A stretch of 40,515 bases of DNA from an uncultured Lachnospiraceae bacterium (lineage in GTDB: Bacteria; Bacillota; Clostridia; Lachnospirales; Lachnospiraceae): positions 1 through 40,515 of the forward strand of contig CALWSC010000032.1 in NCBI GenBank assembly GCA_944384105.1, given 5' to 3'. A model generated the notes under the pieces. That model saw only the letters and a list, made by a program, of their open reading frames with translations. It did not search any database and was not told the DNA's origin. Position numbers and translations under genes: made by a program. Below are positions 5,175-32,454 of this stretch, one piece after another. Position 1 is the first letter of the stretch. Each line of letters begins with the position of its first letter.

Positions 5175-6464
5175 TCATCTCTTAATCTGATAGCCGCAGT
5201 AGTCAAGTACCAGCTCGCTGAACATCGCATTCGCCCAGGAGAACCATTCTCTCGTGTAGTTTTCCGGATTATCCACATCAAATCCTTCATGCATCAGTCC
5301 CTTTCCTCCGTCGGTGTCAGCCAGGAGGTGGAGATAACGCAGCTTCTCCTCGCGGCTCTCGCTTGTGAGTCCTTCCATTGCCAGTGCGATGTGCCAGATA
5401 TAACGCGGCGGGGTGTGCGGGCTTCCGATGCCTGCAGCCTTTGTTCCTGCATAATAATACGGATTTGCCTCACTTAAGATCAGCTTTCTCGTGTTCTCGG
5501 CAACCTTCGGGTCTCTTCCCTCATATCCCAGATACGACATAGACAGAAGGCTCGGCACATTGGCGTCGTCCATCAGATTGTACTGTCCGTAGCCGTCCGT
5601 CTCATAAGCGTACACCTTGCCCACGTTCATCACAGCAGTAATGCCGATTGTCTCAATGCCGTCATAGATCTCTTCTTTAAGCTTTCTCGCCCTGCGGGCA
5701 AGTCCCTTATTCTGCAGAACCTCGTCCGCAATCTCAGCAAGATATCCGAGAACTACAACCGCGAACATATTGGACGGAATCAGATAGCCATACATGCAGG
5801 CATCGTCGCTGGGACGGAATCCGGACCAGGTCATGCCAACACCGGATTTTACGAGAGCTCCCTTGCCGTCTCTGGAAAGCGTATCGGTAAAGAAGGAATT
5901 CCTGCGGATGAACTTGTACGGGGATTCCTCCTCATGATACTGCTCTGTCTCCCATACGTCGAGAATTGTCTCCACACCGTCCAGGAAATCCTGGTCAAAC
6001 TGCTCTGTCATTCCGGTATTCTTCCAGAGCAGATATGCGAGCTGAATCGGGTAGCATAAGGAGTCAACCTCATACTTTCTCTCCCAGAGCCAGTCGTTCA
6101 TCTCCGTCTCATCCTTCTCCCAGCAGTTGCCGTTCGGCGCTTCGTTAAATGCGTTTGCATACGGGTCAATCTTCACAAACTTGAACTGACGGCGCACCAG
6201 CCCTGCGAGCAGCTTCGCGAGCTCCTCATCCTCTCCCGCCGGGATCAGGTATGGCCGAAGCTGCGCCACACTGTCACGAAGCCACATGGCCGGGATATCT
6301 CCCGTGATGACGTATGTAGTTCCATCTTCCAGGACTTTCACCGTCTTGTTCAGGGTATTCGTGTAGCATGTCTCAAACATTTCATACAGTTTCGGCTCAT
6401 TCGCCAGCTTTTCTTTCACCTCTGCCAGCAGGTTCTGTACAGATGCAGGATTTTCCATTTGCAT
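5175..6464 (-). CDS. GH125 exo-alpha-1,6-mannosidase
   Basis: Glycoside hydrolase family 125, 429 residues, full length. The family removes alpha-1,6-linked mannose from the non-reducing end, as found in N-glycan cores and yeast mannan, by an inverting mechanism. The proposed catalytic acid Asp220 lies in FRPSDDACMYG and the general base Glu406 in YTREWFSWANAMFSEL. GDIPAMWLRDSVAQLRPYL near residue 55 is a further family motif. There is no signal peptide, so it should act in the cytoplasm on imported oligosaccharides. The start at 6464 has GGAG eight bases upstream. It is the last gene of the glycan transcript, 24 bases after the CBM9-like gene, and is followed by a terminator. Confidence 0.93.
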   Translation of the reverse strand: MQMENPASVQNLLAEVKEKLANEPKLYEMFETCYTNTLNKTVKVLEDGTTYVITGDIPAMWLRDSVAQLRPYLIPAGEDEELAKLLAGLVRRQFKFVKIDPYANAFNEAPNGNCWEKDETEMNDWLWERKYEVDSLCYPIQLAYLLWKNTGMTEQFDQDFLDGVETILDVWETEQYHEEESPYKFIRRNSFFTDTLSRDGKGALVKSGVGMTWSGFRPSDDACMYGYLIPSNMFAVVVLGYLAEIADEVLQNKGLARRARKLKEEIYDGIETIGITAVMNVGKVYAYETDGYGQYNLMDDANVPSLLSMSYLGYEGRDPKVAENTRKLILSEANPYYYAGTKAAGIGSPHTPPRYIWHIALAMEGLTSESREEKLRYLHLLADTDGGKGLMHEGFDVDNPENYTREWFSWANAMFSELVLDYCGYQIKR

Positions 6465-6488
6465 TGCTTCATCTCCTTGTCTTTTCTA

Positions 6489-7550
6489 TTACATTTCCCA
6501 TTCTTCGGGTGTATATACGGTCAGAAGACCGTCCTCGCGGATCATCAGCCATCTGTCAGCCTCGCGGCAGAACACATATGCTGCAAATCCGCAGGAAGCT
6601 GCCTCTATGCGCACGCCGCGGCTGCAAAGTGCCTGCATCCATGCATCAGCACCCGGATGCCCCGCTGCCAGAGTTTCGATCTCATCCGTGAAGCATCCAT
6701 TGGCATCGCGGTATACCTGCTCATAGTAATACAGCTTTCTCAGCTCCCAGGAAACATACTCTGCCGCCGGGATCTCGTACGTCTCATCTCCCTCTGTGAA
6801 GAATACGAATCCCCACAGCTCGGGATAGTGAATATTGATCACACCGGTCGGAGCCCAGACCCAGTTGTTCTCAGGCAGTACCCTGCCCGACTCGTCGGTG
6901 CGCTTGACATATGCTCCGTCAATCACGTCCACGTCCCACTGTACACGGGAGAAATTCACACGGTAATATTCCCCTGCCTTCGGCGGACGCTTCTGCTGCG
7001 CCATCTCACAGAGAGCGGCAAACGGCATAACCACCTCAACCATCCAGCGCTTATTCTCAGCATTCGGGTTATTCAGCTCACCGTCTATCTTCACGGCTGT
7101 CCTAAGCCCGTGGATATCCCAGCCGTTTAACGGTCTTCCTCCGTCACGGTACGGCTTCGGGAGAAAGAGATCCCACACCGTATTCTTTGCATTCATCTCG
7201 TATTCAAAATAGTGGTGCGTGTCGGAATCCGGGTCAATGAAAATCTCAAAGTCATTGTCATAGAAGATTACGCAGTCGCGCTCCGTCAGATGCCCCCAGA
7301 TCTCGTCGCCCTCCAATACGGCTCCGATATAAAAATTCTCATCGTCCCAGAGCATCTTTGCCCTCGTGCGGCAGCGCGGCGGCTTGACGTCCGCGCCCTC
7401 GATATCCACGAACAGATCCGTGTACGGCGCGTCACTCCAGAACTCCTTATCAAGATTTCCGTCCAGCACGAACGGGCGTGTCGCCCTGCGGCACTGATAA
7501 ACCGGCGGGGCAAAATCGATCCTCGGCAGATCCATGTTCCATTTCTTCAA
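6489..7550 (-). CDS. CBM9-like carbohydrate-binding protein, TTG start
   Basis: Protein of about 353 residues of the family 9-like carbohydrate-binding (DUF1083) group. The first part RPFVLDGNLDKEFWSDAPYTDLFVDIEG and AKMLWDDENFYIGAVLEG matches the CBM9 beta-sandwich opening; the second part carries NFSRVQWDVDV and ENNWVWAPTGVINIHYPE. The start is placed at a TTG at 7550, because GAGGAG stands eight bases before it; a longer reading to 7619 has no ribosome site and runs into a stem-loop. No signal peptide, no catalytic module and no anchor are seen. A stand-alone cytoplasmic glycan-binding protein between GH18 and GH125 is odd; a catalytic role cannot be excluded. Confidence 0.8.
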   Translation of the reverse strand: MKKWNMDLPRIDFAPPVYQCRRATRPFVLDGNLDKEFWSDAPYTDLFVDIEGADVKPPRCRTRAKMLWDDENFYIGAVLEGDEIWGHLTERDCVIFYDNDFEIFIDPDSDTHHYFEYEMNAKNTVWDLFLPKPYRDGGRPLNGWDIHGLRTAVKIDGELNNPNAENKRWMVEVVMPFAALCEMAQQKRPPKAGEYYRVNFSRVQWDVDVIDGAYVKRTDESGRVLPENNWVWAPTGVINIHYPELWGFVFFTEGDETYEIPAAEYVSWELRKLYYYEQVYRDANGCFTDEIETLAAGHPGADAWMQALCSRGVRIEAASCGFAAYVFCREADRWLMIREDGLLTVYTPEEWEM

Positions 7551-7605
7551 TCTTATCACTCCTCGCTGTATTTTTCCAGTAAATTCTTCTTTCTGACGCA
7601 GAAAT

Positions 7606-7650
7606 AGCTGCCGCATCAACCAGACCGCTTGTCTGTTCTTTCTGCGGCAG
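7606..7650 (-). terminator. Stem-loop between GH18 and CBM9-like genes
   Basis: Nine-base arms GCTGCCGCA (7607-7615) and TGCGGCAGC (7642-7650) enclose a second small stem CAGAC/GTCTG. The T-run on the minus strand is poor, so this may attenuate or process the transcript rather than end it. A tandem duplication of CTTTGCAGGTATT lies just beyond (7657-7684). Confidence 0.5.
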
Positions 7651-7694
7651 CCTCTTCTTTGCAGGTATTTCTTTGCAGGTATCTCCTGATTATT

Positions 7695-8717
7695 TTACTC
7701 TTTATTCATAGCTTTTGCAAGAGTCCGCATCAAAGTTCCCGTCTCATCGCTGCTGTATTCCCAGTACATAATGCCTCCGAGTCCCTGCCAGTTTACATAT
7801 TGTACCTTCTCAGTCAGAGACTGTTCGTCGTCGTAACTGATAAAAGTGTCTCCGTCGTAGAGATACGGCGCCTTGGCTTCGTCGTCCCAGTAGCGCACAA
7901 ATCCGTTCTTATTGATATAGGACTCGCAAAGCTCTGTGAAATCCGGTCCGTATCCTCCGGTCGTCTGTGCCATCTGCATCCAGCCGTGGTTCACATCCGG
8001 AACACCCTTCCACATTCTGGAGTAAAACGCGACTCCGACAATCAGCTTCTCGGCCGGCACGCCCGCTTCGAGATAGAGACGCACGCCCTCAGCAGTGCTG
8101 GCATTCGACAGGTCTGCCTGGTTGCTGTACAGGTTTGTATGATGTCCTGTCTGCACGGTAAAGCCGCCGCGCAGGTCGTAAGACATCAGCTGTACATAAT
8201 CAAGATACTGTGAAGCTTCTCCCAGATTGGTGCAGCGCGTATAGTATCCGTCTCCGCCGCCTGCGATACTTAATGTATAGTGACGGTCTCCGATTGCGTC
8301 CAGCGCCCTTCTCGTCTCGGCAAGCAGCAGCGTAAAGTTCTTCTTATCCTCCGGTGAAGCGCCGATTCCCGCAATCGAGATGCACGGGTACTCCCAGTCC
8401 ACATCGATTCCGTCAAGGTGATATTTCTCCACGAGCTTTACTGCCGTATCTGCAAATCGCGCTCTTCCCTCAGCAGTATATGCAGCCTCGGAAAATCCTC
8501 CTGCGCTCCAGCCTCCCACAGAGAGCACGATCCGAAGATTCGGGTTTACAGCGCGAATATGCTCCATCGCCGGGACAGCTTCATCCATATCACACACAAC
8601 AGCTCCGTCCACTACATGCCCGAATGCGAGATTAATTACATCGAGCGCTTTAATATCCTCATCCTTCATCGTGGAAAGCTTCGGAATTCCCACATATCCA
8701 ATTAAAAGTTTGCTCAT
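7695..8717 (-). CDS. GH18 family glycosidase, cytoplasmic
   Basis: Single-domain GH18 (chitinase/endo-hexosaminidase fold) of 340 residues. The active site reads DGIDVDWEYP with the catalytic acid Glu109, the SxGG motif LSVGGWSAGG lies near residue 65, and YVQLMSYDLRGG supplies the conserved Met-Tyr-Asp strand. Both chitin or chitobiose cleavage and N-glycan core cleavage occur in GH18. There is no signal peptide and no chitin-binding module, so secreted chitinase activity is unlikely. Neighbours (GH20, GH2 mannosidase, GH125, GH38) point to GlcNAc-GlcNAc or GlcNAc-containing N-glycan fragments as substrate; this is inference. The start at 8717 has AAGGAG immediately upstream. Confidence 0.88.
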   Translation of the reverse strand: MSKLLIGYVGIPKLSTMKDEDIKALDVINLAFGHVVDGAVVCDMDEAVPAMEHIRAVNPNLRIVLSVGGWSAGGFSEAAYTAEGRARFADTAVKLVEKYHLDGIDVDWEYPCISIAGIGASPEDKKNFTLLLAETRRALDAIGDRHYTLSIAGGGDGYYTRCTNLGEASQYLDYVQLMSYDLRGGFTVQTGHHTNLYSNQADLSNASTAEGVRLYLEAGVPAEKLIVGVAFYSRMWKGVPDVNHGWMQMAQTTGGYGPDFTELCESYINKNGFVRYWDDEAKAPYLYDGDTFISYDDEQSLTEKVQYVNWQGLGGIMYWEYSSDETGTLMRTLAKAMNKE

Positions 8718-8750
8718 TTTCTCCTTCTCCCTGTCATTCTTTCAGAAGCC

Positions 8751-8774
8751 GTCCGCCCTGCGGTCACGGCGGAC
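8751..8774 (-). repeat. Intergenic stem-loop between GH2 and GH18 genes
   Basis: Arms GTCCGCC (8751-8757) and GGCGGAC (8768-8774) with a 10-base loop lie in the 87-base gap between the two genes. There is no T-run on the minus strand, so read-through or mRNA processing is more likely than termination. Confidence 0.45.
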
Positions 8775-8804
8775 AGCTCCCATCGTAAACCTTTATGGTA
8801 ATGA

Positions 8805-11243
8805 TCAGATATCGTATACACTGCGCAGGCGCAGGTTGTCCGGATTTCCGCTGATAATCTTCACGCGGCGCTCTCCGGCATTCATATCAAAATAGTTATC
8901 GTCCAGAATCAGGTCTTCGTTCTCATTGAGGATCTCCACGCTCTTTGCATAAGCGGAAGCCTGTACCACGATCTCGTCGCCCTCCACACGGCAGGTCAGC
9001 TTCGGATCCTCGTATTTGAAATACTTCGGATAAGAGAAGATCACGGTTCCCTGGGAGAACACCTCTCCGTTCTCTTCTGCCTCGTAACTTACATACTCGC
9101 GGAATACATCAATGTCCGGCAGCTCTACCTTATCGAGCCATACGCTTGAAAGTGCGTCCACATGCACGGTCTGCTCTTCCTGACGCAGAATTTCTGCCTT
9201 CTCATTTCTGACAGCCCAGCGCACGAGCACGGTACGATCGTGAAGCGTCTCATTCGTTACGTTCAGCCGGATGGACTTCTCAAACTCAAAGTGCTGACGG
9301 TTCATATTCGCCTCGGTTGTCATCCAGCTTACCTCCTCGCAGGAAAGCATCACCGGAGCGAAGAATCTCTTAGCATAGTAGTGCAGTGCCTTCCATCTGC
9401 CGTAATAGTCAATGGACGACCAGGAAATCACCGGCCAGCAGTCATTTAACTGCCAGTACACGGCTCCCATACATCTGCCCCTGTTGCGGCGGTAGTGCTC
9501 GACGCCGTAGCGGATGCCGTCCGCCTGCAAAAGCTGAGATGCGTACACAAAGTCTGAGAAGTTCATCGGGTAGCGGTACGCGGCCTGCATATAATTGGAA
9601 ATCTTTCCGTTTGCCCCGTAATTTCTCTGATGCTTCTCCATCACATAGGAATACGGGTTTAAATCCTTCTCGTCATCCGTAATCGTCTCAAGCGTCTTTA
9701 CAGACGGGAACGCCTGGAAACCGAATTCGGACAGGTAGCGGAAGAAATTATTTCGATACTGTGAGAACGGCTTGTTGCCGTGCCATACTTCCCAGTTATG
9801 TACATCTCCTCGGGTCGGGTCGTTCGGGAAATCGAAGGATCCGCCTGAAGACGGGCTTGCCGGCCAGTAGAATGTCTCCGGATCATACTCCTTTAACACT
9901 TCCGGAATAATACGCTCGTACATCAGCAGGTAATCGCGCACTTCGGTAGGCTTCGTCACCCAGTTTCCGGATTTCACAAACATCTCCATCTCATTATTAC
10001 CGCACCAGAGAGCCAGAGATGCGTGATGGCGCAGCCTCTTGATATTGTCGACAAATTCAGCGCGGATATTCGCCTCAAATTCCGGTGTCAGCTCATATAC
10101 AGAGCATGCAAACATGAAGTCTTCCCAAACGAGCAGTCCAAACTCGTCGCAGGCGTCAAAGAACCAGTCCTCCGGATAGTAACCGCCGCCCCATACGCGC
10201 ACAGAGTTAAAGTTCGCTCTCTTGCAGTCCAGAAGAAGCTTTCTCGTGCGCTCTGCGGATGTTCTGCCGAGCAGGTGCTCCTCCGGAATATAGTCGGCGC
10301 CCATTGCAAACACCGTCTTGCCGTTTACCTCGTGGGCAAAACTCTCGCCCCACTCGTCTTTTTCGATATGCATCGTCATGGTACGAAGACCGATGCGCTT
10401 CTGCCAGGTATCCAGCAGCTCTCCAGCGCAGTACAGCTCTACCTTTACACGGTACAGAGGCTGATCCCCGAGTCCGTTCGGCCACCACAGCTTCGGATTA
10501 TCGATCTCGATGGTCTCCGGATCTCCCTCATATGTCTGTGACTGTCCGTCCGGATCGGTCACAGTCACTGTGTAGCTGTAATCCGTATCGTCAAGCTCCA
10601 TCAGCTCTGTCTCAACCTCCAGCAGAAGAGTCACTTTCCCCTCCTCGTGGCGCTGGCGGATGTAGACACTGTCAAGGCGCGCTTTCTTCACGCCCAGAAG
10701 GCTGACCGGACGGAAAATACCGGCGTCAGGCAGGCATGCGCCCCAGTCCCAGCCGCTCATGTAGTGCGCTTTTCTCAGGTGCATGAATCCCTCGATCGTA
10801 TCCTCATTTCCTATATTGCCATATTTTTTGAATGCCTCGGCCATGAACTTTAACGGGGAGTGCAGCGTTACGCTTAAAACATTGTCACCGGCTTTTAAGA
10901 TGTTCTTTACTCTATATTCCCAGATGCGGTGCATATTGCAGGGGCTTCCGAGATGCTCGCCGTTTAAGTACACATCCGCCACAGTGTCGATTCCGTCAAA
11001 GTGCAGGAATACCTCGTCACAGTCTGCAAACTCACCGTCCTGTACGGTAAATACGGTGCGGTACTCGTAGTCCTTCTCCATCAGAGCCTTTGTCTGATAC
11101 TCATTATCCTTAAAATAAGGATCCTCAATGCTGCCGCTGCGCAGCAGGTCTGTGTAAACGGTGCCCGGAACGACTGCACTGATCCAGTCCTCATTTTCCG
11201 TGCATCTAAGCTGCCATCCTTCCTGAATTTCTCGTTTTATCAT
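8805..11243 (-). CDS. GH2 beta-mannosidase
   Basis: Beta-mannosidase-type GH2 enzyme of 812 residues. It should release beta-1,4-linked mannose, for example from Man-beta-1,4-GlcNAc, by a retaining mechanism. Domain order: N-terminal jelly-roll (about 1-190, with VPGTVYTDLL and MSGWDWGACLPDAGIF), immunoglobulin-like domain (about 190-300), TIM barrel with acid/base Glu418 in LWCGNNEMEMF and nucleophile Glu506 in YLSEFGFQAFP, then C-terminal beta domains. The WDWG and SEFGFQ motifs separate beta-mannosidases from beta-galactosidases. There is no signal peptide, so it is cytoplasmic. The start at 11243 has AGGAGG six bases upstream and lies 21 bases after the GH20 stop. Confidence 0.93.
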   Translation of the reverse strand: MIKREIQEGWQLRCTENEDWISAVVPGTVYTDLLRSGSIEDPYFKDNEYQTKALMEKDYEYRTVFTVQDGEFADCDEVFLHFDGIDTVADVYLNGEHLGSPCNMHRIWEYRVKNILKAGDNVLSVTLHSPLKFMAEAFKKYGNIGNEDTIEGFMHLRKAHYMSGWDWGACLPDAGIFRPVSLLGVKKARLDSVYIRQRHEEGKVTLLLEVETELMELDDTDYSYTVTVTDPDGQSQTYEGDPETIEIDNPKLWWPNGLGDQPLYRVKVELYCAGELLDTWQKRIGLRTMTMHIEKDEWGESFAHEVNGKTVFAMGADYIPEEHLLGRTSAERTRKLLLDCKRANFNSVRVWGGGYYPEDWFFDACDEFGLLVWEDFMFACSVYELTPEFEANIRAEFVDNIKRLRHHASLALWCGNNEMEMFVKSGNWVTKPTEVRDYLLMYERIIPEVLKEYDPETFYWPASPSSGGSFDFPNDPTRGDVHNWEVWHGNKPFSQYRNNFFRYLSEFGFQAFPSVKTLETITDDEKDLNPYSYVMEKHQRNYGANGKISNYMQAAYRYPMNFSDFVYASQLLQADGIRYGVEHYRRNRGRCMGAVYWQLNDCWPVISWSSIDYYGRWKALHYYAKRFFAPVMLSCEEVSWMTTEANMNRQHFEFEKSIRLNVTNETLHDRTVLVRWAVRNEKAEILRQEEQTVHVDALSSVWLDKVELPDIDVFREYVSYEAEENGEVFSQGTVIFSYPKYFKYEDPKLTCRVEGDEIVVQASAYAKSVEILNENEDLILDDNYFDMNAGERRVKIISGNPDNLRLRSVYDI

Positions 11244-11264
11244 AGTATGCCTCCTGTCAGTAAT

Positions 11265-13112
11265 TTATTTTTCAAGTCCCGCTCTGGTGCGAAGCTCATC
11301 TGCATACCAGCAGATCACGTCTGTAATCTGATAAAGCTCGGACTCCCTGCTCACGCTTCTCCAGAGATTCTTAAAGTGCCAGTACCAGTGTTCAAGTGCA
11401 TCTGCCAGTGCGAGAAGCTGCTCCTTGGAGTACTCCTCCCCGGATACGACAAGCCCTATCTCGTTGAAGATGCGCATACCCTCGGATGCAGTCAGATATG
11501 CTCCGGCATCCTCTCTCGTCTTCGTATCCAGATGCTTCATGCATCCTGCAAGCTCCTGCGCCAGAAGCGGCTGCTTCTCATTGTTTTCTCTCGCTGCCGC
11601 CTTCTTCTTCTCATCGTCCAGCGTAAACTGCAGCGCTTCCTGCGTATGCCCGTCCGCCATCGTCTCCTTATATTTTACAGCTCTCCACCAGCCGAACTCG
11701 GAGAGTACGCCAAGCTGATCCACCACGGAGAGCAGCTTCTCAGAAGAATCTCTGAATTCCACTTTCGAGATTCTGCGGTTCATCTCCTCGAATGGTACTT
11801 CTTTCTGATTCCATGAGAATTCCGCGCCATAGATTATGCCGGGAATACTCATAACCGGATGGTTAATATGGCCGTAGTCGCCCCAGTCTGTATTCAGCAT
11901 GCCGACAGCGTTGTATTTCACGCCGTAGGAACACATGCGCGTGATATTATTATAGGAAGAGTTCAGAAGCGGTATGAACATATTCCATGATCCGACGCCC
12001 GGGCAGACATACTGAACCGCGCCGGCCTGAGCGAGCGCTCTCGTGTTATTCTCCAGCTCGTTCGGAGAATAGCCCCAATTTAAGCAGATCATCTCTTTCG
12101 GAAGCTCTCTGATAAATTCCGGGAAGCCGCAGATCACATCGCCCCAGAACATCGGGATTCTTCCCTTTGAGATCACAAACTCGGCCAGGCGCTTCACATA
12201 GCCGATGTACAGATGATCCACGCCGATCTCATCTGCAGCTGCCTTCGTCGCGCCTTTGCCAAGATCAAAGGTCTCGTCTGCACAGATATTAAAGTGCTTC
12301 GAGCGGAACAGCGGCATGAACTCGCTGATCATACCCTCGATCAGCTCTGCGCTCTCGTCCACAGTTACATTGATCGTATGGTGCGCCATACGGTCATTAA
12401 AACGGAACGGCTCCTTTCTGGGATCTTCCATCTCGCTTAAGTGCTGATACTGCTTTGTACGCAGCAGCTTATACAGGTGACCAAAGCATGACAGCGACGG
12501 CACAAGCTCAATGCCCAGCTTCCAGCAGTAATCATCCAGCTCCATAATGTCCTCCGCAGTCAGAGGAGTGTCATCTCTCCACATCTCGCTTAAATTTTCA
12601 AACAGGTAGGTATGCTCAATGTAGAGCTGCAGCTGATTCATCTTGTAGAAGCTCAGCGTGTCCGCCAGCCGCTTCAGCCAGGAGAGCTTCGGCACCCTGC
12701 TGCGGGTCGCATCGTGATAGAAGCCGCGGTTTTCCATCTGCGGCGCATCCTCAATCTCAAGATACGGCAGCAAAGCGCCCTCCTGGCGGATGATCTGGCG
12801 AAGTGTCTGAACGCCGTAGATCAGTCCTCTTCTATCTGCTCCCGTGATCTTTACTCCGTCCTCTCCGATCGAGAGCATATAGCTTTCCGGCGCTCCCTGT
12901 GCTGTTGACAGTCTAATTCCCGCATTCTTCGATGCTCCTCTCACAATCGAGAGTGTGATTCCCGCGGACTCTTTCAGTTCATCTCTGAGAAGCTGAGCGT
13001 GGAAGAGATTCTCCTGTGCGCAGGAATCGTCAAGGCAGATGGTGTGGGTGAAATTCAGATAATATACACCCTCTCTTGTCTCAAGTTTCTGTGGTTCCGG
13101 TATGATGTACAT
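11265..13112 (-). CDS. GH20 beta-N-acetylhexosaminidase
   Basis: GH20 enzyme of 615 residues that should release terminal beta-linked GlcNAc or GalNAc by substrate-assisted catalysis. The N-terminal GH20b domain spans about 1-125 (GVKITGADRRGLIYGVQTLRQII). The catalytic barrel follows, beginning at ENRGFYHDATRSRVP, with the Asp279-Glu280 pair in NICADETFDLGKG. This replaces the more common GGDE version of the motif, so the subgroup is somewhat divergent. A C-terminal alpha-helical region of about 200 residues follows. No signal peptide is seen. It is the first glycosidase after the transporter genes and is separated from them by a terminator and a candidate internal promoter. Confidence 0.9.
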   Translation of the reverse strand: MYIIPEPQKLETREGVYYLNFTHTICLDDSCAQENLFHAQLLRDELKESAGITLSIVRGASKNAGIRLSTAQGAPESYMLSIGEDGVKITGADRRGLIYGVQTLRQIIRQEGALLPYLEIEDAPQMENRGFYHDATRSRVPKLSWLKRLADTLSFYKMNQLQLYIEHTYLFENLSEMWRDDTPLTAEDIMELDDYCWKLGIELVPSLSCFGHLYKLLRTKQYQHLSEMEDPRKEPFRFNDRMAHHTINVTVDESAELIEGMISEFMPLFRSKHFNICADETFDLGKGATKAAADEIGVDHLYIGYVKRLAEFVISKGRIPMFWGDVICGFPEFIRELPKEMICLNWGYSPNELENNTRALAQAGAVQYVCPGVGSWNMFIPLLNSSYNNITRMCSYGVKYNAVGMLNTDWGDYGHINHPVMSIPGIIYGAEFSWNQKEVPFEEMNRRISKVEFRDSSEKLLSVVDQLGVLSEFGWWRAVKYKETMADGHTQEALQFTLDDEKKKAAARENNEKQPLLAQELAGCMKHLDTKTREDAGAYLTASEGMRIFNEIGLVVSGEEYSKEQLLALADALEHWYWHFKNLWRSVSRESELYQITDVICWYADELRTRAGLEK

Positions 13113-13159
13113 AACTTATCTACCGCCTTTCCTCTATCATTTTCCTTATTAAGCCGGAA

Positions 13160-13197
13160 AAAGGTGGAATACAGAAATACTCCCATATTCCACCTTT
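13160..13197 (-). terminator. Terminator/attenuator after the solute-binding protein gene
   Basis: A 12-bp perfect stem (AAAGGTGGAATA at 13160-13171, TATTCCACCTTT at 13186-13197) is followed on the minus strand by a run of T. Partial termination here would let the transporter genes be expressed above the downstream glycosidases. Confidence 0.8.
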
Positions 13198-13201
13198 CCT
13201 C

Positions 13202-13231
13202 CTTATATTTTCACCGTACGGTGAATGGTAA
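13202..13231 (-). promoter_or_regulatory. Candidate internal promoter with operator before GH20
   Basis: On the minus strand, TTACCA (13226-13231) and TATAAG (13202-13207) are 18 bases apart. The 16-bp perfect palindrome TTCACCGTACGGTGAA (13210-13225) fills the spacer, as expected of a repressor operator. The same core CCGTACGG occurs in the GH38 leader at 20536-20543. A transcript from here would meet the terminator stem at once, so its contribution to GH20 is uncertain. Confidence 0.45.
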
Positions 13232-13240
13232 TCTTAGAAA

Positions 13241-15013
13241 TTATTCAGCAGCCTCATCTGTTGTCTCAGCAGTATCGTCTGTTGTCTCAGCAGACTCATC
13301 TGTTGTTTCAGCAGTATCATCTGTTGTCTCAGTGCTCTCGCCAGCTGCTGCCTGAGCCTCTGCTGCTGTTTCTTTACGCATCTTCACGTAATCTTCCAGA
13401 CCTAAGGTATTTAACTGCTCGCAGTATGCATCCCAGCCGCTGTCAATGTCAGCCTGTCCTGCAATCCACTGAGCTACAGTCTGCTCAATGTACTCCTGAA
13501 TAGCTGTCTGAACTTCGCTCATCTCATCAGCCTGATCAAGCGGAATCCAGTAGGACGGAAGAACACCGGTCAGATGACCTTCATACTTAGCGTCAACCTC
13601 ATCCTTCTCCTGATACGGCTCCGGAGTCGTCTTGATCTCGAATCCAAGCGGAACGTACTTCGGCAGAGCCTGCGGCCACAGGTTAGCCCATGTGTATCTA
13701 TCCTGATCTTCCTGAGACAGAGTTGTTACGTCGATCTTGGTGTACTCGCCGTTGTCATTCTTCTGAACAACTTCCGGAATCGGTCCGTTGATGATCTGGA
13801 TACTGTAATCCGGCTCGAAAACGGTATCCCAGAAACGAACGATAGCGCCAACATCCTCAGGATCTGTCTTGTTTGTGATTACAAGCTGTGTTCTGATTGT
13901 GGAAACACCTTCAGAATCCTGATACCACTTCGGATCGCTGCAGTTCTCGCTGGTAAGAACCGGAAGAGATACCCAGTCCGGAGTCTCACCGTTAGCATAC
14001 GGCATAAAGTCAGAGCTTGCGTAGCACATCGTTGCGCCAAGCTGGTCATTTCCGCCCTTGCTCTCCCAGATAGAGGAATCCTGTGTGAATGCCTCCGGGT
14101 CGATCAGACCTTCGCTGTACAGCTTGTTAAGGAACTTCACGCCCTCTTTGAACTCTTCTGTATTGGCAACGAACTCAACCTCGCCGTCCTTCATGGTCAT
14201 ACCATTCTCATCGCAGGAAGCGCCGAACCATGCCATCATGTAGTTGATGTTCTTGTTGTTCGGGTCAAAGCTTAACGGGATCTCATCGTTCGGGTCACCG
14301 TTTCCGTTGGCATCCTTCTCTTTGAATGCCTTTAATACCTCATAAAACTCGTCTGTCGTTGTCGGCAGCTCCATACCTACGTTCTTCAGCCATCTGGTGT
14401 TGATGGAGATCTGATAATCTACCTTCGGAGCGTCTACCGTATACGGGATTGTATAGATATGTCCGTCCGGAGCCGTCATGGTCTCACGCGCACCCGGTAC
14501 TTCATCCAGGATCTGCTGGATATTCGGAGCATATGCCTCGATGTAGTCCTCCAGAGGTACGAACATTCCCTGGCTTACGCCGTATTTCAGAATATCGGTA
14601 TCTTTCAGCAGCCATCCGCCGATCATCTCGGGATAGTCGCCGGAGCTCAGCGCCAGAGACAGCTTCTCGGTAGCAACCTCGTTTGCGTAATACTCAACGT
14701 TAAAGTCAATACCGGTATCCTCTCTCAGCTTGTCAACCATATACCACTCTCCTGTGGAAGAAGAGTCATCGACGAATACTGTACAGGAAACTTCCTGTCC
14801 GTCTGCTACGATCGGAAGTCCTTCCTTGTTCCATTTGCCGTTGACAACGCCGTTTTCATCGACCTTGTCGTTCTCCGGGCTGTACTTCTCTGCTGTTGCA
14901 TCGCCGCCTGTGCTGGTGCTGGCGCTGTCACCACCACTGCCGCCGCAGCCTGCAAACACGCCTGCCGCCATAACGCCGCTTAACAGAAGTGCCATTAACT
15001 GTTTTTTCTTCAT
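13241..15013 (-). CDS. Sugar ABC transporter solute-binding lipoprotein
   Basis: Extracellular solute-binding protein of the LplA/YtcQ-like group, 590 residues. A lipoprotein signal peptide with lipobox GVFAGC predicts lipidation at Cys22, followed by a Gly/Ser/Thr-rich linker and the two-lobed ligand-binding domain. It should capture oligosaccharides outside the cell and pass them to the two permeases encoded upstream in the same operon. The C-terminus is unusual: after a helical end it carries an acidic tail of about four seven-residue repeats of the type TTDD(T/S)AE, coded by near-identical 21-bp units. The ligand is inferred from the linked mannosidases and hexosaminidase, not from the sequence itself. 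Confidence 0.92.
   Translation of the reverse strand: MKKKQLMALLLSGVMAAGVFAGCGGSGGDSASTSTGGDATAEKYSPENDKVDENGVVNGKWNKEGLPIVADGQEVSCTVFVDDSSSTGEWYMVDKLREDTGIDFNVEYYANEVATEKLSLALSSGDYPEMIGGWLLKDTDILKYGVSQGMFVPLEDYIEAYAPNIQQILDEVPGARETMTAPDGHIYTIPYTVDAPKVDYQISINTRWLKNVGMELPTTTDEFYEVLKAFKEKDANGNGDPNDEIPLSFDPNNKNINYMMAWFGASCDENGMTMKDGEVEFVANTEEFKEGVKFLNKLYSEGLIDPEAFTQDSSIWESKGGNDQLGATMCYASSDFMPYANGETPDWVSLPVLTSENCSDPKWYQDSEGVSTIRTQLVITNKTDPEDVGAIVRFWDTVFEPDYSIQIINGPIPEVVQKNDNGEYTKIDVTTLSQEDQDRYTWANLWPQALPKYVPLGFEIKTTPEPYQEKDEVDAKYEGHLTGVLPSYWIPLDQADEMSEVQTAIQEYIEQTVAQWIAGQADIDSGWDAYCEQLNTLGLEDYVKMRKETAAEAQAAAGESTETTDDTAETTDESAETTDDTAETTDEAAE
13244..13333 (-). repeat. Four 21-bp tandem repeats coding an acidic tail
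   Basis: In-frame tandem units containing TCTGTTGTCTCAGCAGTAT (plus-strand sense) repeat about four times with few changes and code TTDD(T/S)AE heptads at the end of the solute-binding protein. A repeat this regular can change copy number by slippage without breaking the frame. Confidence 0.85.
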
Positions 15014-15093
15014 AAACTTTTCCCTTCCTTTTCTTTATTTCATATCTGCGCCCCGCACGGAGCGCAGAATATGCTCAAAAATCTCTCAAATAA

Positions 15094-16020
15094 TCAACCC
15101 TTTACAGAACCGATCATAACACCCTTTACGAAGTGCTTCTGGATGAACGGATAAAGGATCATTACCGGGATACTGGAAACGATGATCAGAGAGTACTTCA
15201 TCAGGTCTACCAGTGCCTGCTGCTCCTGCAGTGCCTGCTGCATTTCCGGCGTTGTTACAGCCATCGACAGGTTCGCCTCATTGGAAATAAGGATACTTCT
15301 CAGGACGAGCTGCAGAGGATATTTAGACTCTGTCTTCATGTACAGCAATGCGCTGAAGTAGTTATTCCAGTGTCCGATTCCGTAATACAGAACCATGATA
15401 GCGATAATCGCTTTTGACAGCGGCAGCGCAATCTTGAAGAAGAACTTCGTGTGACCGCAGCCGTCCACCGTCGCCGCCTCAAAGAGCTCCTCAGGAAGGC
15501 TGCTCTCGAAGAATGTTCTTGCAACGATCATGTTGTACACACTCATTGCTCCCGGAACGATCAGGGACCACATGGTGTCCAGCATGTGCATATTCTTAAC
15601 AACCAAGTAAGTCGGAATCATACCGCCGCTTACGAACATCGTAACCATGTAGAAGAAAGTTACGAACTTTTTGCCTGCGAACTGACGTCTGGACAGTGTA
15701 TAAGCTGTCGGGATCGTCACGATCAGGTTGATACATGTACCAACCGTGGTGTAAAAGATGGAGTTTACGAAGCTTCGCATAACACGGGTGTCCTTGAACA
15801 CTTCCGCGTATCCATCCAAGCTGAAGCCCACCGGAAGAAATGTCACATCTCCGCCTGATACCGCCTGCGGATCACTGATAGACGCAATAATTACGAAATA
15901 CAGCGGATACGCAACGATAATCAGGATGAGTGTCAGAATAATAAACAGAGTAATATCAAAGGCTTTATCGGCTCTTGATTCTTTTACTTTGTTGCTTACT
16001 TTTGTTTTTGCTTTAGCCAT
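15094..16020 (-). CDS. Sugar ABC transporter permease, LplC/MalG type
   Basis: Inner-membrane permease of 308 residues with six predicted transmembrane segments, the first at about 20-42. The EAA loop that contacts the ATPase reads EAATVDGCGHTKFFFKIALPLSKAIIA. The gene follows the LplB-type permease by 17 bases, and the solute-binding protein gene follows after about 80 bases. The start at 16020 has an AGGAGG about 12 bases upstream, slightly far. There is no ABC ATPase gene in the locus, so a shared MsmK/UgpC-type ATPase encoded elsewhere is expected. Confidence 0.93.
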   Translation of the reverse strand: MAKAKTKVSNKVKESRADKAFDITLFIILTLILIIVAYPLYFVIIASISDPQAVSGGDVTFLPVGFSLDGYAEVFKDTRVMRSFVNSIFYTTVGTCINLIVTIPTAYTLSRRQFAGKKFVTFFYMVTMFVSGGMIPTYLVVKNMHMLDTMWSLIVPGAMSVYNMIVARTFFESSLPEELFEAATVDGCGHTKFFFKIALPLSKAIIAIMVLYYGIGHWNNYFSALLYMKTESKYPLQLVLRSILISNEANLSMAVTTPEMQQALQEQQALVDLMKYSLIIVSSIPVMILYPFIQKHFVKGVMIGSVKG

Positions 16021-16036
16021 ATCTCACTGCCACCTC

Positions 16037-16990
16037 CTAGTACAGACTGATTCCAGCGCCCTTGCTGGCGATCTTGTTAACGATAATCAGCATTACCGCA
16101 TTGACTGCAGAGTTGAACAGACCGATTGCGGACGAGTACGACTGGTTGGCATTTACAATACCGACTTTGTACACGTACGTTGAAATAATCTCGGAAACAC
16201 CTGCATTCAGAGGGTTCTGCAGCAGGAAGGCTTTCTCGAATCCGACGGAGAGGATACTTCCGCAGCTGAGGATCAATAATACGATTGCTGTAGGAAGGAT
16301 ACTCGGGATATCGATGTGGCGGATAACCTGAAGCTTTGTAGCTCCGTCCATGATTGCCGCCTCATGCAGATCCGGGCTTACGTTAGCCAGAGCTGCGAAG
16401 TAAATGATGGAGTTCCATCCCATTGTCTGCCAGATACCTGACCACACATAGATATGGCGCCAGTAACCTGCATTTGCCATGAAGTTGACTGCTTCACCGC
16501 CTAATGACTCGATGATCTTGTTAATGAATCCGCTGCTCGGAGACAGGAACAAGTTCAGCATACCACACATAACTACGACGGAAATGAAGTTCGGTGCGTA
16601 GGTAACGGTCTGGATAACCTTGGTGTAGCGTTTGTGCTTGAACGCGTTCAGTGCCAGCGCCAGCAGGATCGGGATCGGGGTACCGGCGATCAGCGAGTAG
16701 ATACTCAGTATGAACGTGTTGCGAAGCGTGGTGACAAAGTACGGCGACTCGAAGAAGCGTTTGAAGTACTTCATGCCTACCCACGGGCTTCCCATGAATC
16801 CCAGTGTCGGGTTGTAGTCGCGGAATGCGATCTGCACGCCGTACAGCGGTATGTAGGAGAAGATAAACGTGATGATTAATCCCGGAAGGACGAATACCCA
16901 CAGCGGGAAATCGCGCTTGAATATTCTCACCACCCTGCCTTTCCTCTTCGCCGGACTAGTGCCGCCAGCTCCGTTTTTTTGCTTTTTCAT
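16037..16990 (-). CDS. Sugar ABC transporter permease, LplB type
   Basis: Permease of 317 residues of the LplB/MalF-like group with six membrane segments. The first segment FPLWVFVLPGLIITFIFSYI begins near residue 27, and the EAA loop is EAAIMDGATKLQVIRHIDIPSI. The start is placed at 16990: AAAGGAG lies eight bases upstream, whereas the longer reading (to 17032) has no ribosome site. It is the first gene of the transporter operon, with a consensus promoter about 120 bases upstream and a leader rich in inverted repeats. It pairs with the next permease to form the membrane channel. Confidence 0.93.
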   Translation of the reverse strand: MKKQKNGAGGTSPAKRKGRVVRIFKRDFPLWVFVLPGLIITFIFSYIPLYGVQIAFRDYNPTLGFMGSPWVGMKYFKRFFESPYFVTTLRNTFILSIYSLIAGTPIPILLALALNAFKHKRYTKVIQTVTYAPNFISVVVMCGMLNLFLSPSSGFINKIIESLGGEAVNFMANAGYWRHIYVWSGIWQTMGWNSIIYFAALANVSPDLHEAAIMDGATKLQVIRHIDIPSILPTAIVLLILSCGSILSVGFEKAFLLQNPLNAGVSEIISTYVYKVGIVNANQSYSSAIGLFNSAVNAVMLIIVNKIASKGAGISLY

Positions 16991-17019
16991 AGCATCATCT
17001 CCTTTGCTTTTTATAATGT

Positions 17020-17054
17020 AACTTTTTGCCAAAAGTTAAACATTCATTGTTAAC
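17020..17054. promoter_or_regulatory. Overlapping palindromes in the transporter leader
   Basis: Two inverted repeats overlap here: AACTTTT-TGCC-AAAAGTT (17020-17037) and GTTAA-N10-TTAAC (17035-17054). Both lie downstream of the promoter at 17113-17141 and upstream of the ribosome site. They are candidate regulator sites; none matches an operator I can name. Confidence 0.4.
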
Positions 17055-17112
17055 ACTTGTTTACTTGTTTTTCATCGGTGTTTTAGAGATTTTTAATTTT
17101 TAATTTATGGTT

Positions 17113-17141
17113 ATTATATAATATGACGATGCTAATGTCAA
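17113..17141 (-). promoter_or_regulatory. Consensus SigmaA promoter of the transporter/glycosidase operon
   Basis: TTGACA (17136-17141) and TATAAT (17113-17118) are both perfect with a 17-base spacer on the minus strand. The predicted start near 17106 gives a leader of about 115 bases before the LplB-type permease. A perfect promoter of this kind normally needs a repressor or catabolite control. Confidence 0.88.
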
Positions 17142-17327
17142 CATAAGTTCTTGTATTGCAAGCATTTTATTTGATTTCCACAAAATTTTAATGCTAATTT
17201 TGTGAATTATACACAGATACTTTCTATTCACATCCTGTTCACATTTAACATTTTTTAACTTTTTGCGACATTCTGCATCTTTTTCTCTTTTCTGAATCTT
17301 TTTTCTCTTCCTGCGGTTGAACTGAAA
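17142..17327. promoter_or_regulatory. AT-rich regulatory spacer with a 9-bp inverted repeat
   Basis: Part of the 399-base region without genes between the transporter operon and GH38. It is strongly AT-rich. The clearest element is CACAAAATT (17179-17187) / AATTTTGTG (17196-17204), upstream of the -35 box, a position suited to an activator. An 83-codon open frame here has no family likeness and is treated as chance. Confidence 0.4.
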
Positions 17328-17367
17328 AAGCCAGAAAACTGAAGTTTTCACTTTCGTTTTCCGGCTT
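17328..17367 (-). terminator. Terminator of the GH38 gene
   Basis: Twelve-base arms AAGCCAGAAAAC (17328-17339) and GTTTTCCGGCTT (17356-17367), one mismatch, followed on the minus strand by a T-run. It isolates GH38 transcription from the transporter operon. Confidence 0.8.
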
Positions 17368-17389
17368 CCCCATTGAAGCTTTATCTCAG

Positions 17390-20300
17390 TTATTTCTTAT
17401 ATGTAACCTTGTATGTCTTAATCTCATACGGCTTGATAACAATGTCGAATCCGCCGTCTGTCCATGCAAGATCGCGTTCCTCTTCTTCCATGAGGTTGCA
17501 CTCTGCAACGCGCTCCACTTTGGAGAGGTTCACATTTACATGTGCTTTCGTACGTGCATTCTCACTCTCATAAATACGCAGGATCACACCGCTTCCGTCT
17601 TCCGCCTGCTTTACAGCCTCGATTATTACGTTGCGCTTGTCCACGGATACGAAGCTGTAGGACTCCTGAGCTGCTCTTCCTGCCTTAACATATACCGGCA
17701 CGTTCAGCTTGTAGGACTCCTGGATGGTACCGCCGTCACGGAATCCCTCGCCGTGCGGATACAGTGAGTATACCATCACATGCTTCTCCTGGTCTGCTGT
17801 CGGATTCGGATCGTTTCCGGACTTTAAGAGTGTCAGAGCAATATTGCCGTTCTTTACGGAATGACCGTACTTGCAGTCATTAAGCAGGCTGACTCCGTAG
17901 TGTCCCTCGGAAAAGTCCATCCACTTCTGTCCGCAGCTCTCAAATCTTGCTTCTTCCCAGCTTGTGTTCGTGTGAATCTTCCTCGTCACATTTCCAAACT
18001 GTATATCAAATGCCGCCTCGTCAGAATGCACATCCACAGGGAAGTGTACCTTCAGCAGATGCTGACAGTCTTTCCAGTCAATCTTTGTGTCAAAGTCAAT
18101 TCTGCGTGTGTCTGCGTAGAAATAAATCGTCTGGCAGATCTTTGACTTGCTCACGGAACGCTCAATCTGCAGCGCTGCGCGCACCGGCCCGTTCTCGATC
18201 CACTCCATACGGTCTACACCTGTCACATCCCAAAATTTCTCTGTATAGTACATGTCAATGTCCCAGTTATTGTAGTCCATCGGCTTATCCTCGTACATAC
18301 GGATCAGGTTGCCCTTCTCCCCATCCTGGATAATCTCGCGATCGTAATCCTTGTCATAAATGGATGAGAACAGTCCGTTTTCGTCCAGAACTGCACGGTA
18401 GAACGGGGTCTCGATTGTATTTCCGTCGATCACAAAGGAAGTCTTCTTTTCTGCCGGTGCCTGTGCTGCGCGAAATACCTTCCAGCCCTTTGCCGGAATA
18501 TTGCGCACATAGACAGTGCTTCCCTGCTCCGTCTTCTGTACCGGGTAGACGTTGCCCTCGCTGTCACAGAGAGCTTCCGCCTGGATCTTCTCATCGAGTG
18601 TCACAACGTCACTGCGCTCAAATCCAAGCGTATTGAACAGCGTTACGCCCTCTCCCGCCGGAGCCAGCTTCTCCAGCCGTTCTTCGATCAGTGCCTTTGC
18701 CTTCGCGCCGACTTGATCGTACTCCTGCTTTGTCAGCTCATAAACTTCATGAATGGATGTACCCGGAAGAATATCATGGAACTGGTTTCTCAGGATCAGT
18801 TCCCACATCCAGGCGAGATCTTCCGACGGATAGCATCCTGTCAGCACGCTCAGGAACTCGAGATCCATCATTGTGAACTCGCTCTTTCTGTTTGAGCGCT
18901 TGTTTCTTCCCATGGAAGTGTACGTTCCGCGGTGATACTCGAAGTAGAGCTCTCCCTCCCAGGTTGCAAGGCGCTTATTATCCTTTACGCGCTCCTCCAG
19001 TTCCTCAAAATATTTTCTGGAAAACTCCTGGCGCACCATCGGGATACCCTTTACGCCCTTTTCCATACGCATGGAAGTCTCAAGCATCTCCCTCGTCGGG
19101 CCGCCGCCGCCGTCGCCGTATCCGTAGCTGATCAGGATATCATTGTTAATATTCTTATCCTGGTATCTCTCCCAGCCGCCTAAAATTGCATCCGGATGAA
19201 GCATTCCATTGTATGTAGTGAAGAAATTCTTCACATCCTGTCCCACACCAAGCGTGGTGATCAGGTGTGTAAGAACCTCTGTGCCGTCGATACCGCGCCA
19301 CATGAATGTGTCATGAGGGATCTTATTAATCTGATTCCATGCAAGCTTCGTGGTCATAAAGTAGTCGATGCCGCTGCGCTTCATAATCTGAGGCAGCGCT
19401 CCTGAATATCCGAATACATCCGGAAGCCACAGAATACGGTTGTCCACTCCGAACTCATCCTTAAAGAACTTCTTCCCCTTTAAGAACTGGCGAACCAATG
19501 ACTCACCGGAGGTCAGATTACAATCTGCCTCTACCCACATGCCGCCTTCCGGCTCCCAGCGGCCCTCTGCAATGCGCTCTTTTACGCGCTCATAAAGCTT
19601 CGGATAGCGAACCTTTAAGAAATCATAGAGCTGCGGCTGGCTGGACATAAACTTGTAGTTGGGATACTCATCCATCAGCTTTAATACTGTCGCAAAGCTT
19701 CGCCCTGTCTTCTCACGCACCTGCTCTACCGTCCACAGCCATGCCACATCGATGTGTGTGTGTCCGATGCAGGTTGCAATCACATCGCGATAGCCTGCCA
19801 TGTCCTCGTAAAGTGCTTTCTGTATATATGCAGATGCTTCTCTTAAGGAGCGGTAGAAGTCCTCAGAGTACGGTGTTCTCAGATCGAGCAGGTTGATGCA
19901 GGAGTTAAGAATCTCTGTAATCTCCTGTACGGCAGTATCCTCACCCATCTCCTTCATACGCGGGAATGCGCGCAGCGGAACAATCAGATCATAATACAGG
20001 CTCTCAATCTCATGGTCGATCTCCAGGATTTCCGGAATCAGACGGAATTCGCTGTGCAGCGTCCCTGTATAGGACTGCAGTCCGAACTGATACGTCCTTC
20101 CAGCCTCAGCGCTTCTCGTCAGAAGCACTCTTCGGTGATTCATATCCATGCCCTGTACCGGCTCTCCGTCCAGGAACAGTAAGAACTGCGGGTTTCTGGC
20201 ATCGTCCCACTCATCGATCTGGGTTTTAACACCCAGCCAGATCTCTTTGCCCTGCAGCCTCTCCGGAACCGTATATTCCGCTTTGAACCAGTAGTGTTCG

Positions 20301-20488
20301 TCTGTTCCATACCAGTGCATGGTCATACTGTCAAATGCTTCCCACGGCTGCTCTGCCTTCTGCGCATCCTCCGGATAAATAAAGTTTCCCTTCTTATACT
20401 GAAGGTGCTCGATGGTTTCTGTGGAAACTACAGACAGCTTTAATAACTCTCTGCATATTACCCCGACCCGTCGGTCCAAATATCTCAT
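17390..20488 (-). CDS. GH38 alpha-mannosidase
   Basis: Alpha-mannosidase of 1032 residues, full length for the bacterial GH38 group. Order: N-terminal beta domain (about 1-225), GH38 catalytic domain, a three-helix middle domain, and C-terminal beta domains. Zn-binding GHTHIDVAWLW starts near residue 238, and the nucleophile Asp near residue 355 lies in WLPDVFGYSG. GYGDGGGGPT is a further family motif. It is a retaining Zn2+ enzyme that trims alpha-mannose from N-glycans or mannans. There is no signal peptide, so it is cytoplasmic. The start at 20488 is chosen because GGAGG is five bases upstream; a longer reading to 20524 lacks this. It has its own promoter, divergent from the LacI gene. Confidence 0.94.
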   Translation of the reverse strand: MRYLDRRVGVICRELLKLSVVSTETIEHLQYKKGNFIYPEDAQKAEQPWEAFDSMTMHWYGTDEHYWFKAEYTVPERLQGKEIWLGVKTQIDEWDDARNPQFLLFLDGEPVQGMDMNHRRVLLTRSAEAGRTYQFGLQSYTGTLHSEFRLIPEILEIDHEIESLYYDLIVPLRAFPRMKEMGEDTAVQEITEILNSCINLLDLRTPYSEDFYRSLREASAYIQKALYEDMAGYRDVIATCIGHTHIDVAWLWTVEQVREKTGRSFATVLKLMDEYPNYKFMSSQPQLYDFLKVRYPKLYERVKERIAEGRWEPEGGMWVEADCNLTSGESLVRQFLKGKKFFKDEFGVDNRILWLPDVFGYSGALPQIMKRSGIDYFMTTKLAWNQINKIPHDTFMWRGIDGTEVLTHLITTLGVGQDVKNFFTTYNGMLHPDAILGGWERYQDKNINNDILISYGYGDGGGGPTREMLETSMRMEKGVKGIPMVRQEFSRKYFEELEERVKDNKRLATWEGELYFEYHRGTYTSMGRNKRSNRKSEFTMMDLEFLSVLTGCYPSEDLAWMWELILRNQFHDILPGTSIHEVYELTKQEYDQVGAKAKALIEERLEKLAPAGEGVTLFNTLGFERSDVVTLDEKIQAEALCDSEGNVYPVQKTEQGSTVYVRNIPAKGWKVFRAAQAPAEKKTSFVIDGNTIETPFYRAVLDENGLFSSIYDKDYDREIIQDGEKGNLIRMYEDKPMDYNNWDIDMYYTEKFWDVTGVDRMEWIENGPVRAALQIERSVSKSKICQTIYFYADTRRIDFDTKIDWKDCQHLLKVHFPVDVHSDEAAFDIQFGNVTRKIHTNTSWEEARFESCGQKWMDFSEGHYGVSLLNDCKYGHSVKNGNIALTLLKSGNDPNPTADQEKHVMVYSLYPHGEGFRDGGTIQESYKLNVPVYVKAGRAAQESYSFVSVDKRNVIIEAVKQAEDGSGVILRIYESENARTKAHVNVNLSKVERVAECNLMEEEERDLAWTDGGFDIVIKPYEIKTYKVTYKK

Positions 20489-20513
20489 GCGTACCTCCTT
20501 TTGCCGCTTCCTC

Positions 20514-20546
20514 TGTCCGGACATTTTTCTCTGTCCCGTACGGCAG
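20514..20546. promoter_or_regulatory. Two palindromes in the GH38 leader, candidate LacI operators
   Basis: TGTCCGGACA (20514-20523) is a perfect 10-bp palindrome. CTGTCCCGTACGGCAG (20531-20546) holds the perfect core CCGTACGG, which also forms the centre of the palindrome at 13210-13225. Both lie downstream of the predicted GH38 start of transcription. LacI-family operators often have a central CG or similar symmetric core. Assignment to the adjacent LacI protein is inference. Confidence 0.45.
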
Positions 20547-20563
20547 TATTTTGATATACCTGA

Positions 20564-20592
20564 ATATTAGCATCGGTTAAGTCAATTTGCAA
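20564..20592 (-). promoter_or_regulatory. Promoter of the GH38 gene
   Basis: Minus-strand TTGCAA (20587-20592) and TAATAT (20564-20569) with a 17-base spacer and a TG extension before the -10 box. It stands back to back with the LacI promoter, the two -35 boxes being 17 bases apart. Confidence 0.7.
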
Positions 20593-32385: not shown

Positions 32386-32413
32386 ATGATACCATAAAAT
32401 ACGCGGTTTTCAA
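32386..32413 (-). promoter_or_regulatory. Promoter of glnS
   Basis: Minus-strand TTGAAA (32408-32413) and TATCAT (32386-32391) with a 16-base spacer and a TG extension. The leader of about 45 bases is too short for a T-box. Confidence 0.65.
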
Positions 32414-32454
32414 AGGATTTTTTTCTGCGGAAGGCTGATTCCCAAAGCCGCCTG

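Follow-up and report, generated by a model that had tools for sequence, protein, structure and literature searches.

The window analysed here, the whole stretch of 40,515 nucleotides, is contig C32 of an assembly of 2.93 Mb in 123 contigs that is 78% complete (genome G000). Between positions 5175 and 20524 it carries a colinear run of open reading frames, all on the minus strand. In the direction of transcription, these encode a predicted GH38 α-mannosidase (17390–20524; GH38N, 316 bits), an LplB-like ABC permease (16037–17032; TTG start, with an internal ATG possible) and an LplC-like ABC permease (15094–16020), both matching PF00528 with BPD_transp_1 scores of 36 and 56 bits for the two, a lipoprotein solute-binding protein (SBP) of the FusA/AlgQ group (13241–15013; SBP_bac_8, 42 bits) and a predicted GH20 β-N-acetylhexosaminidase (11265–13112; PF02838, GH20b, 83 bits; PF00728, GH20, 52 bits). 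There follow a predicted GH2 exo-β-mannosidase (8805–11243), a GH18 protein predicted to be a cytoplasmic chitobiose-core or GlcNAc-releasing enzyme (7695–8717; PF00704, 235 bits), a CBM9-like protein, CBM9L (6489–7619; PF06452, 41.5 bits), and a GH125 protein whose family predicts an exo-α-1,6-mannosidase (5175–6464; PF06824, 522 bits). A LacI-family regulator, identified with Pfam, is encoded divergently from GH38 on the plus strand (20669–21703). The Pfam scores of the named genes exceed the cut-off, so that the five glycosidase families and the LplABC-type importer listed in the preliminary description are indeed present. The GH38 start given there, at 20488, is an internal Met of a frame that reaches 20524.

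The gaps between the genes from LplB to GH125 are 16–128 bp and GH38 is separated from LplB by 357 bp; two transcripts are therefore likely, starting at LplB and at GH38. Signal peptides were judged by the simple hydropathy of the first 40 residues. By this measure the SBP, with a peak of 2.28, is the only soluble protein with a signal-like N-terminus; for the five enzymes and CBM9L the peak is 1.56 or less and no signal peptide is seen, in keeping with the earlier statement that the enzymes lack them. Neither Rfam nor a tRNA scan gave a match in the window. At 32455–32730, a short frame matches the end of Helicase_C only, and with many stops elsewhere in 32400–33520, in the frame translated, it looks like a gene remnant.

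Enzymes of the operon

The α-mannosidases that cytoplasmic trimming of an N-glycan calls for, GH38 together with GH125 or GH92, are represented here by GH38 and GH125, cytoplasmic by hydropathy only. The closest solved relatives of the GH38 protein are of the Ams1 class (6lz1, 497 bits; 7ufr–7ufu, 376–390 bits), and it is distant from 2wyh (67 bits) and from the lysosomal enzyme 1o7d (31 bits). We take it that 7ufr–7ufu may be Bifidobacterium longum GH38 enzymes. Three more GH38 matches, two of them strong, occur elsewhere in the genome, on contigs C117 (locus L116), C23 (L117) and C34 (L004).

For the Man-β-1,4-GlcNAc linkage, which may be met by GH2, GH5_18 or GH130, the operon supplies the predicted GH2 β-mannosidase. 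This protein has a Glyco_hydro_2_N2 domain (168 bits) and two mannosidase Ig domains in Pfam, and its closest solved relatives are exo-β-mannosidases, 2vjx (504 bits) followed by 6bye, 5n6u and 6ddt. The GH18 protein consists of one 340-residue domain in which the acid motif DGIDVDWE is kept. The solved protein best matched over the full length is 6inx, an N-acetylglucosaminidase (406 bits); ahead of this stand only two chitinase entries, each matched twice over part of its length. With the NCBIfam EndoH model the GH18 protein reaches 20.8 bits, where the cut-off is 300. Because 6inx is the closest full-length relative and the EndoH model falls below its cut-off, a chitobiose-core or GlcNAc-releasing role appears more likely than that of a classical endoglycosidase.

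The same α-mannosidases bear on a different food source. GH38 and GH125 also serve the breakdown of yeast α-mannan, according to the available part of one report (PMC10154615), and the locus might accordingly be read as digesting yeast α-mannan or mannoprotein fragments instead of host or plant N-glycans. The removal of mannan side chains does not call for GH2, GH18 or GH20, even if the N-glycan cores of mannoproteins would need them, and a Pfam scan of 30 proteins from the window turned up no GH76, GH92 or GH99; we consider this origin of the substrate quite improbable.

The importer

A dedicated SBP and two permeases lie within the operon, and the SBP begins with a lipobox-like FAGC. No ATPase gene is present in the operon, as had been remarked at the outset. 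Two matches above the curated cut-off of NF008653, presumably the UgpC/MsmX-type ATPase, were found elsewhere in the genome, on other contigs.

The best solved relatives of the SBP in a PDB sequence search are FusA and AlgQ1/2. The S. pneumoniae N-glycan-binding protein NgtS (entries 5suo, 5swa, 5swb and 5mlt) was absent from the 14 matches given by this search and by one with a profile built from 15 SBPs, in a PDB set that may not include these entries; the SBP was thus not placed in the NgtS group, that of the S. pneumoniae-type importer. Entry 5g5y, its best solved relative, was considered as a possible NgtS structure and rejected, since the accessible text of PMC5287374 gives it as FusA. 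Judged from its sequence, the SBP family tells us nothing firm about the ligand and gives no evidence for N-glycans.

Related loci

Relatives were gathered by means of CBM9L, which yielded 71 loci from named genomes, 29 from Bacillota (L033–L060 and L085) and 42 others. The latter include L102, titled Oscillospiraceae, and L101–L103 have no CBM9L match in a stricter search. Fusicatenibacter saccharivorans and Eisenbergiella porci are among the sources, with L052 and L053. These named loci overlap with the other sets, in that L052 and L051 have sequence in common with L126 and L129 and L034 corresponds in position to contig 13 of genome G093. In the 29 Bacillota loci, a GH18 of the present kind occurs in 22, GH29 in 21, an SBP (at any identity) in 18 and a protein with a transglutaminase core in 18; LacI is found in 15, GH20 in 12, GH130 in 11 and an M17 aminopeptidase in 10, and GH38 (5), GH3 (4), GH125 (3) and GH2 (2) are rarer. 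These counts are lower bounds, many stretches ending at contig ends. CBM9L, which had been singled out as an oddity, thus recurs in Bacillota beside this GH18 (22/29) and GH29 (21/29). One locus (L059, 3.2 kb) holds CBM9L alone; of the seven loci without GH18, four span 3–11 kb and three (L051, L056 and L060) 18–21 kb.

A comparison of gene order, which had been suggested as a check, was carried out in Lachnospiraceae and beyond. The order from LplB to GH125 recurs in the same-genus locus L034, and a Blautia MAG (L035) has the part from SBP to GH125 with two GH29 fucosidases; across the wider set GH2 and GH125 are found in only 2/29 and 3/29 loci, so that the enzyme set of the window is that of a small subgroup. 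Genome G179 (L122) carries LplB-LplC-SBP-GH29-GH20-GH2-GH18-GH29 and has no CBM9L match in the genome; because of this we conclude from the gene content that CBM9L is dispensable for such an operon. The added GH29 genes in L035 and L122 are as would be expected for core-fucosylated N-glycans. Three of the genes 3′ of the operon, those for a LarB-like AIRC protein, a KDPG aldolase and the first of two PfkB kinases, are matched in L033 and L034, and the last kinase only in L034; none has a match in the 27 remaining Bacillota loci, and we do not count them as part of the N-glycan locus. The AIRC-domain protein, which we take to be of LarB size, lies directly after the operon at 4349–5101.

Among the 42 other loci, 12 have at least one N-glycan-type enzyme (GH92 in 10, GH130 in 6, GH29 in 5, GH20 in 4) and 30 gave no match to the query enzymes. 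GH92 is added in some Bacteroidota loci, as GH29 and GH130 are in those of relatives; in Leeuwenhoekiella, CBM9L stands beside GH92, GH130, a sodium symporter and GH20. CBM9L appears from these neighbourhoods to accompany enzymes of the N-glycan type in two phyla or more.

These neighbourhoods also bear on the use of chitin oligosaccharides or plant β-mannan, with the α-mannosidases as passengers. The GH18 protein is closest to chitinases and a GlcNAcase, and GH2 β-mannosidases also act on plant mannans. On the other hand, mannosidases and fucosidases cluster with GH18 across the relatives, and the LplB-to-GH125 operon is continuous, with gaps no wider than 128 bp; we regard such a diet as very improbable.

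Linkage was also assessed in 250 genomes of the family, a sample of nearly one genome per genus. Any GH18 match is common (158/250). CBM9L and a close GH18 (E of 2.9e-93 or better) are each found in 8 genomes, and in 7 of these together (hypergeometric probability 5.7e-12, for a pair chosen post hoc and ignoring shared descent).

The CBM9-like protein

The match of CBM9L to PF06452 (cut-off 23.4 bits) covers 93 of the 185 profile positions, in the first half only, and no solved homologue was found at E below 0.9. Reducing-end sugar binding is a trait of CBM9. In L034 a stop codon parts the N-terminal stretch that is matched from the conserved remainder of the protein, so that the TTG start at 7619 is probably wrong and the true start is at or near the ATG at 7535.

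A hydrophobic, signal-like start is present in 26/30 CBM9L frames outside the Bacillota set versus 1/27 within it, the sole exception (L048) having an over-long start. Outside the Bacillota set, GH92 frames have a hydrophobic start in 14/14 cases and GH130 frames in none. Because the signal-like starts are common outside the Bacillota set and almost lacking within it, CBM9L seems to reside in the compartment in which digestion would take place; this speaks against a role in capture at the cell surface.

Among the 42 loci that are not in the Bacillota set, 10 have CBM9L directly followed by a member of a family of approximately 370 residues (for example L063:10999–12117); the member scanned has no Pfam match, and several have a lipoprotein- or Tat-like start.

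The regulator and a proposed pathway

LacI matches in the 15 Bacillota CBM9L loci show 43–49% identity in 13 of them and 27% in L038 and L085. The word ATTAGCATCG has only two exact copies in the window, one at each of the two promoters: upstream of the permease gene (17127–17136, minus strand) and between GH38 and lacI (20566–20575, plus strand). With up to one mismatch allowed, 5 occurrences are found in the window against 3.19 expected, no more than chance, and the word was not found in L034, which extends 412 bp upstream of its LplB match. ATTAGCATCG is therefore a weak candidate for the LacI operator.

We propose that the locus serves to import N-glycan core oligosaccharides and to digest them. 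To this reading we attach a probability of roughly 0.72, because the full family-level set of core activities is present in one gene run and because the loci of relatives add GH29, GH130 and GH92, all compatible with N-glycans as substrate. As first suggested, breakdown of the N-glycan core inside the cell, with a dedicated importer and LacI regulator, remains the best account of the genes. The sequence provides the gene set directly; from it we infer what is digested, in which order the linkages are cut, the sharing of an ATPase, the part played by CBM9L and the control by LacI. The lipoprotein SBP would capture the oligosaccharide outside the cell, and the two permeases would import it, powered by a shared ATPase. 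GH38 and GH125 would then strip the α-mannose, GH2 would remove the β-mannose, and GH18 and GH20 would cut the GlcNAc-GlcNAc core. CBM9L would be a soluble partner in core processing, possibly holding the reducing end, and LacI may sense a product and control the GH38 and transporter promoters. Counting against N-glycans as substrate are the placing of the SBP in the FusA/AlgQ group and the relatives of GH18, of which the best full-length one is a GlcNAcase and others are chitinases, not ENGases.

Relationship to known systems

In eukaryotes, N-glycan breakdown employs an Ams1-class GH38, a GH2 β-mannosidase and GH20, with a GH18 chitobiase in the lysosome. The likeness of the window to this cytosolic and lysosomal breakdown is an analogy of roles and is not evidence of descent as a set.

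Among bacteria, import followed by intracellular digestion of N-glycans has already been published or proposed for Streptococcus pneumoniae (PMC5215778, in part) and Cutibacterium acnes (PMC6160142, in part). The C. acnes locus comprises cytoplasmic GH38, GH5_18, GH20 and GH18 enzymes with an ABC transporter (PMC6160142), and resembles the window in its cytoplasmic whole-core enzymes, in the nearby SBP and permeases and in a GH18 without a secretion signal. It differs in having GH5_18 instead of GH2 and GH125 in a second locus; an ATP-binding protein is given in its legend, and the accessible portion of the paper notes no CBM9-like protein. The same portion reports that no PNGase F was identified and proposes that the glycan is released by another microbe, the authors suggesting a different skin bacterium as a possible source of the releasing enzyme (PMC6160142). 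The claim that reliance on fragments freed by neighbours is an undescribed uptake strategy is consequently not supported.

In S. pneumoniae, EndoD and the NgtS-P1-P2 transporter act with GH92 and GH125, so that an SBP with two permeases and N-glycan α-mannosidases are shared with the window; NgtS binds Man1GlcNAc and Man5GlcNAc, which have one reducing GlcNAc, as made by EndoD (PMC5215778, in part). The window differs in that its SBP is of the FusA/AlgQ group, in that GH18 and GH20 are available for a GlcNAc2 core and in that no GH85 was found. An N-glycan operon of B. longum, known to us by its description as cited in PMC10154615, has three GH38 enzymes and GH125 and acts on high-mannose N-glycans; set beside the window by this description, it likewise has GH38 and GH125 in one operon.

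A search for releasing enzymes elsewhere in the genome found no GH85 in the 78% complete assembly, and because of this completeness the missing GH85 is weak evidence for the lack of such an enzyme. The only other GH18 match in this assembly is a 593-aa frame on contig C37. GH85 was matched in 2 of the 9 genomes searched, strongly in G003 and weakly in G016, both of which have CBM9L. PNGase F-type (PF09113) and Asparaginase_2 searches gave no matches in the 9 genomes, a result of little weight as the PNGase control was also silent.

N-glycan use and the form of its uptake seem little charted in gut Clostridia compared with Bacteroidota, and the recurrent GH18–CBM9L locus offers a candidate gene marker for N-glycan-eating gut Clostridia.

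A transglutaminase-core protein and glycopeptide import

What appears from these comparisons to be new is that CBM9L travels with this GH18 and with the transglutaminase-core protein, often with M17 nearby. In the literature searched we found no description of CBM9L as a mark of N-glycan loci, of its fusions or of the transglutaminase-core/M17 link in such loci. All 8 genomes with CBM9L among the 250, and all 8 with the close GH18, have the transglutaminase-core protein, which is present in 30 overall (hypergeometric probability 1.7e-8 each, with the same reservations as above). Fusions of CBM9L occur with the transglutaminase-core protein in L038, L085 and G003 and with GH18 in L040, a single MAG in which an indel is possible. 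All 10 Bacillota CBM9L loci with M17 also have the transglutaminase-core protein, and in the 9 genomes searched, 4 of the 5 M17 matches are no more than 2.5 kb away from a transglutaminase-core gene. Linkage and fusions of this kind, with M17 nearby, point to intracellular glycopeptide processing.

These observations bear on a further reading, that the food consists of short N-glycopeptides or glyco-asparagine and that the glycan is freed from Asn in the cytoplasm. The prevalence of the transglutaminase-core protein (18/29) and M17 (10/29) in the Bacillota CBM9L loci speaks for it, as do the fusions, the spacing of the M17 genes and the two transglutaminase-core genes of the present genome, each of which adjoins a GH29. 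The window operon itself has neither gene, no M17 was found in the 78% complete assembly and only 3 of the 9 genomes have an M17 match. As a substrate, glycopeptides are thus possible, if on balance doubtful, and we are equally tentative about the releasing step, which in the relatives might fall to a transglutaminase-core amidase and in the species of the window perhaps to GH18, acting as an endoglycosidase. More ambitiously, the window locus might be one form of a widespread N-glycopeptide import in Clostridia, in which a transglutaminase-core amidase of a new kind would free the glycan from Asn in the cytoplasm, working with CBM9L, GH29 and M17. We think this somewhat less probable still; if true, bacteria would have an equivalent of the cytosolic route of eukaryotes. 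With the linked transglutaminase-core/M17 pair, the idea that glycopeptides and not free glycans are imported becomes testable. Import of core oligosaccharides remains our preferred reading for the window.

In the named Bacillota loci, unfused full-length transglutaminase-core proteins have 784–866 residues and no clear signal stretch by hydropathy; in L072, the sole copy from Prevotellaceae, the N-terminus is signal-like. A Transglut_core domain is present in both copies scanned with Pfam. A profile of 14 of the proteins gave six PDB matches at E up to 10: a transglutaminase-family Ig domain (1e-22), a thioredoxin-like protein (5e-4), a putative cysteine protease (0.045) and three PNGase sequences (0.29, 0.32 and 1.5). 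Cys160, His193 and Glu211 are invariant in 38/38 alignment rows, representing 33 distinct sequences. In 33/33 of the latter, the Cys and His of the PNGase fold occur in the context GRCGE...H.W, as aligned to 1x3w and 3esw at E of approximately 0.3, and in 33/33 the position that we take to be that of the catalytic Asp of PNGase is Gly. With the Asp missing and the profile score weak, we reject a plain bacterial PNGase, and both points tell against release of whole N-glycans from peptides. An amidase or peptidase acting on imported glycopeptides is the role we favour; PNGase activity would be a guess.

The copies from CBM9L loci do not form one clade in a FastTree phylogeny with midpoint root (38 rows, five being the same gene fetched twice). 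The present genome has two distant copies, both outside the window. One, on contig C107 (with its GH29 at C107:9442–16841, in L115), has an SBP and two permeases alongside; the other (with its GH29 at C37:24737–28256, in L114) lies near CutC and a sulfatase and may serve other glycopeptides, which weakens the tie to N-glycopeptides. Both loci look like other glycopeptide loci, and because of the surroundings of the C37 copy the transglutaminase-core protein would appear not to be tied to N-glycans alone. The C-terminal domain of the protein resembles the thioredoxin-like structure 2m72 and carries the motif EPTEH or EPTNH (alignment A1).
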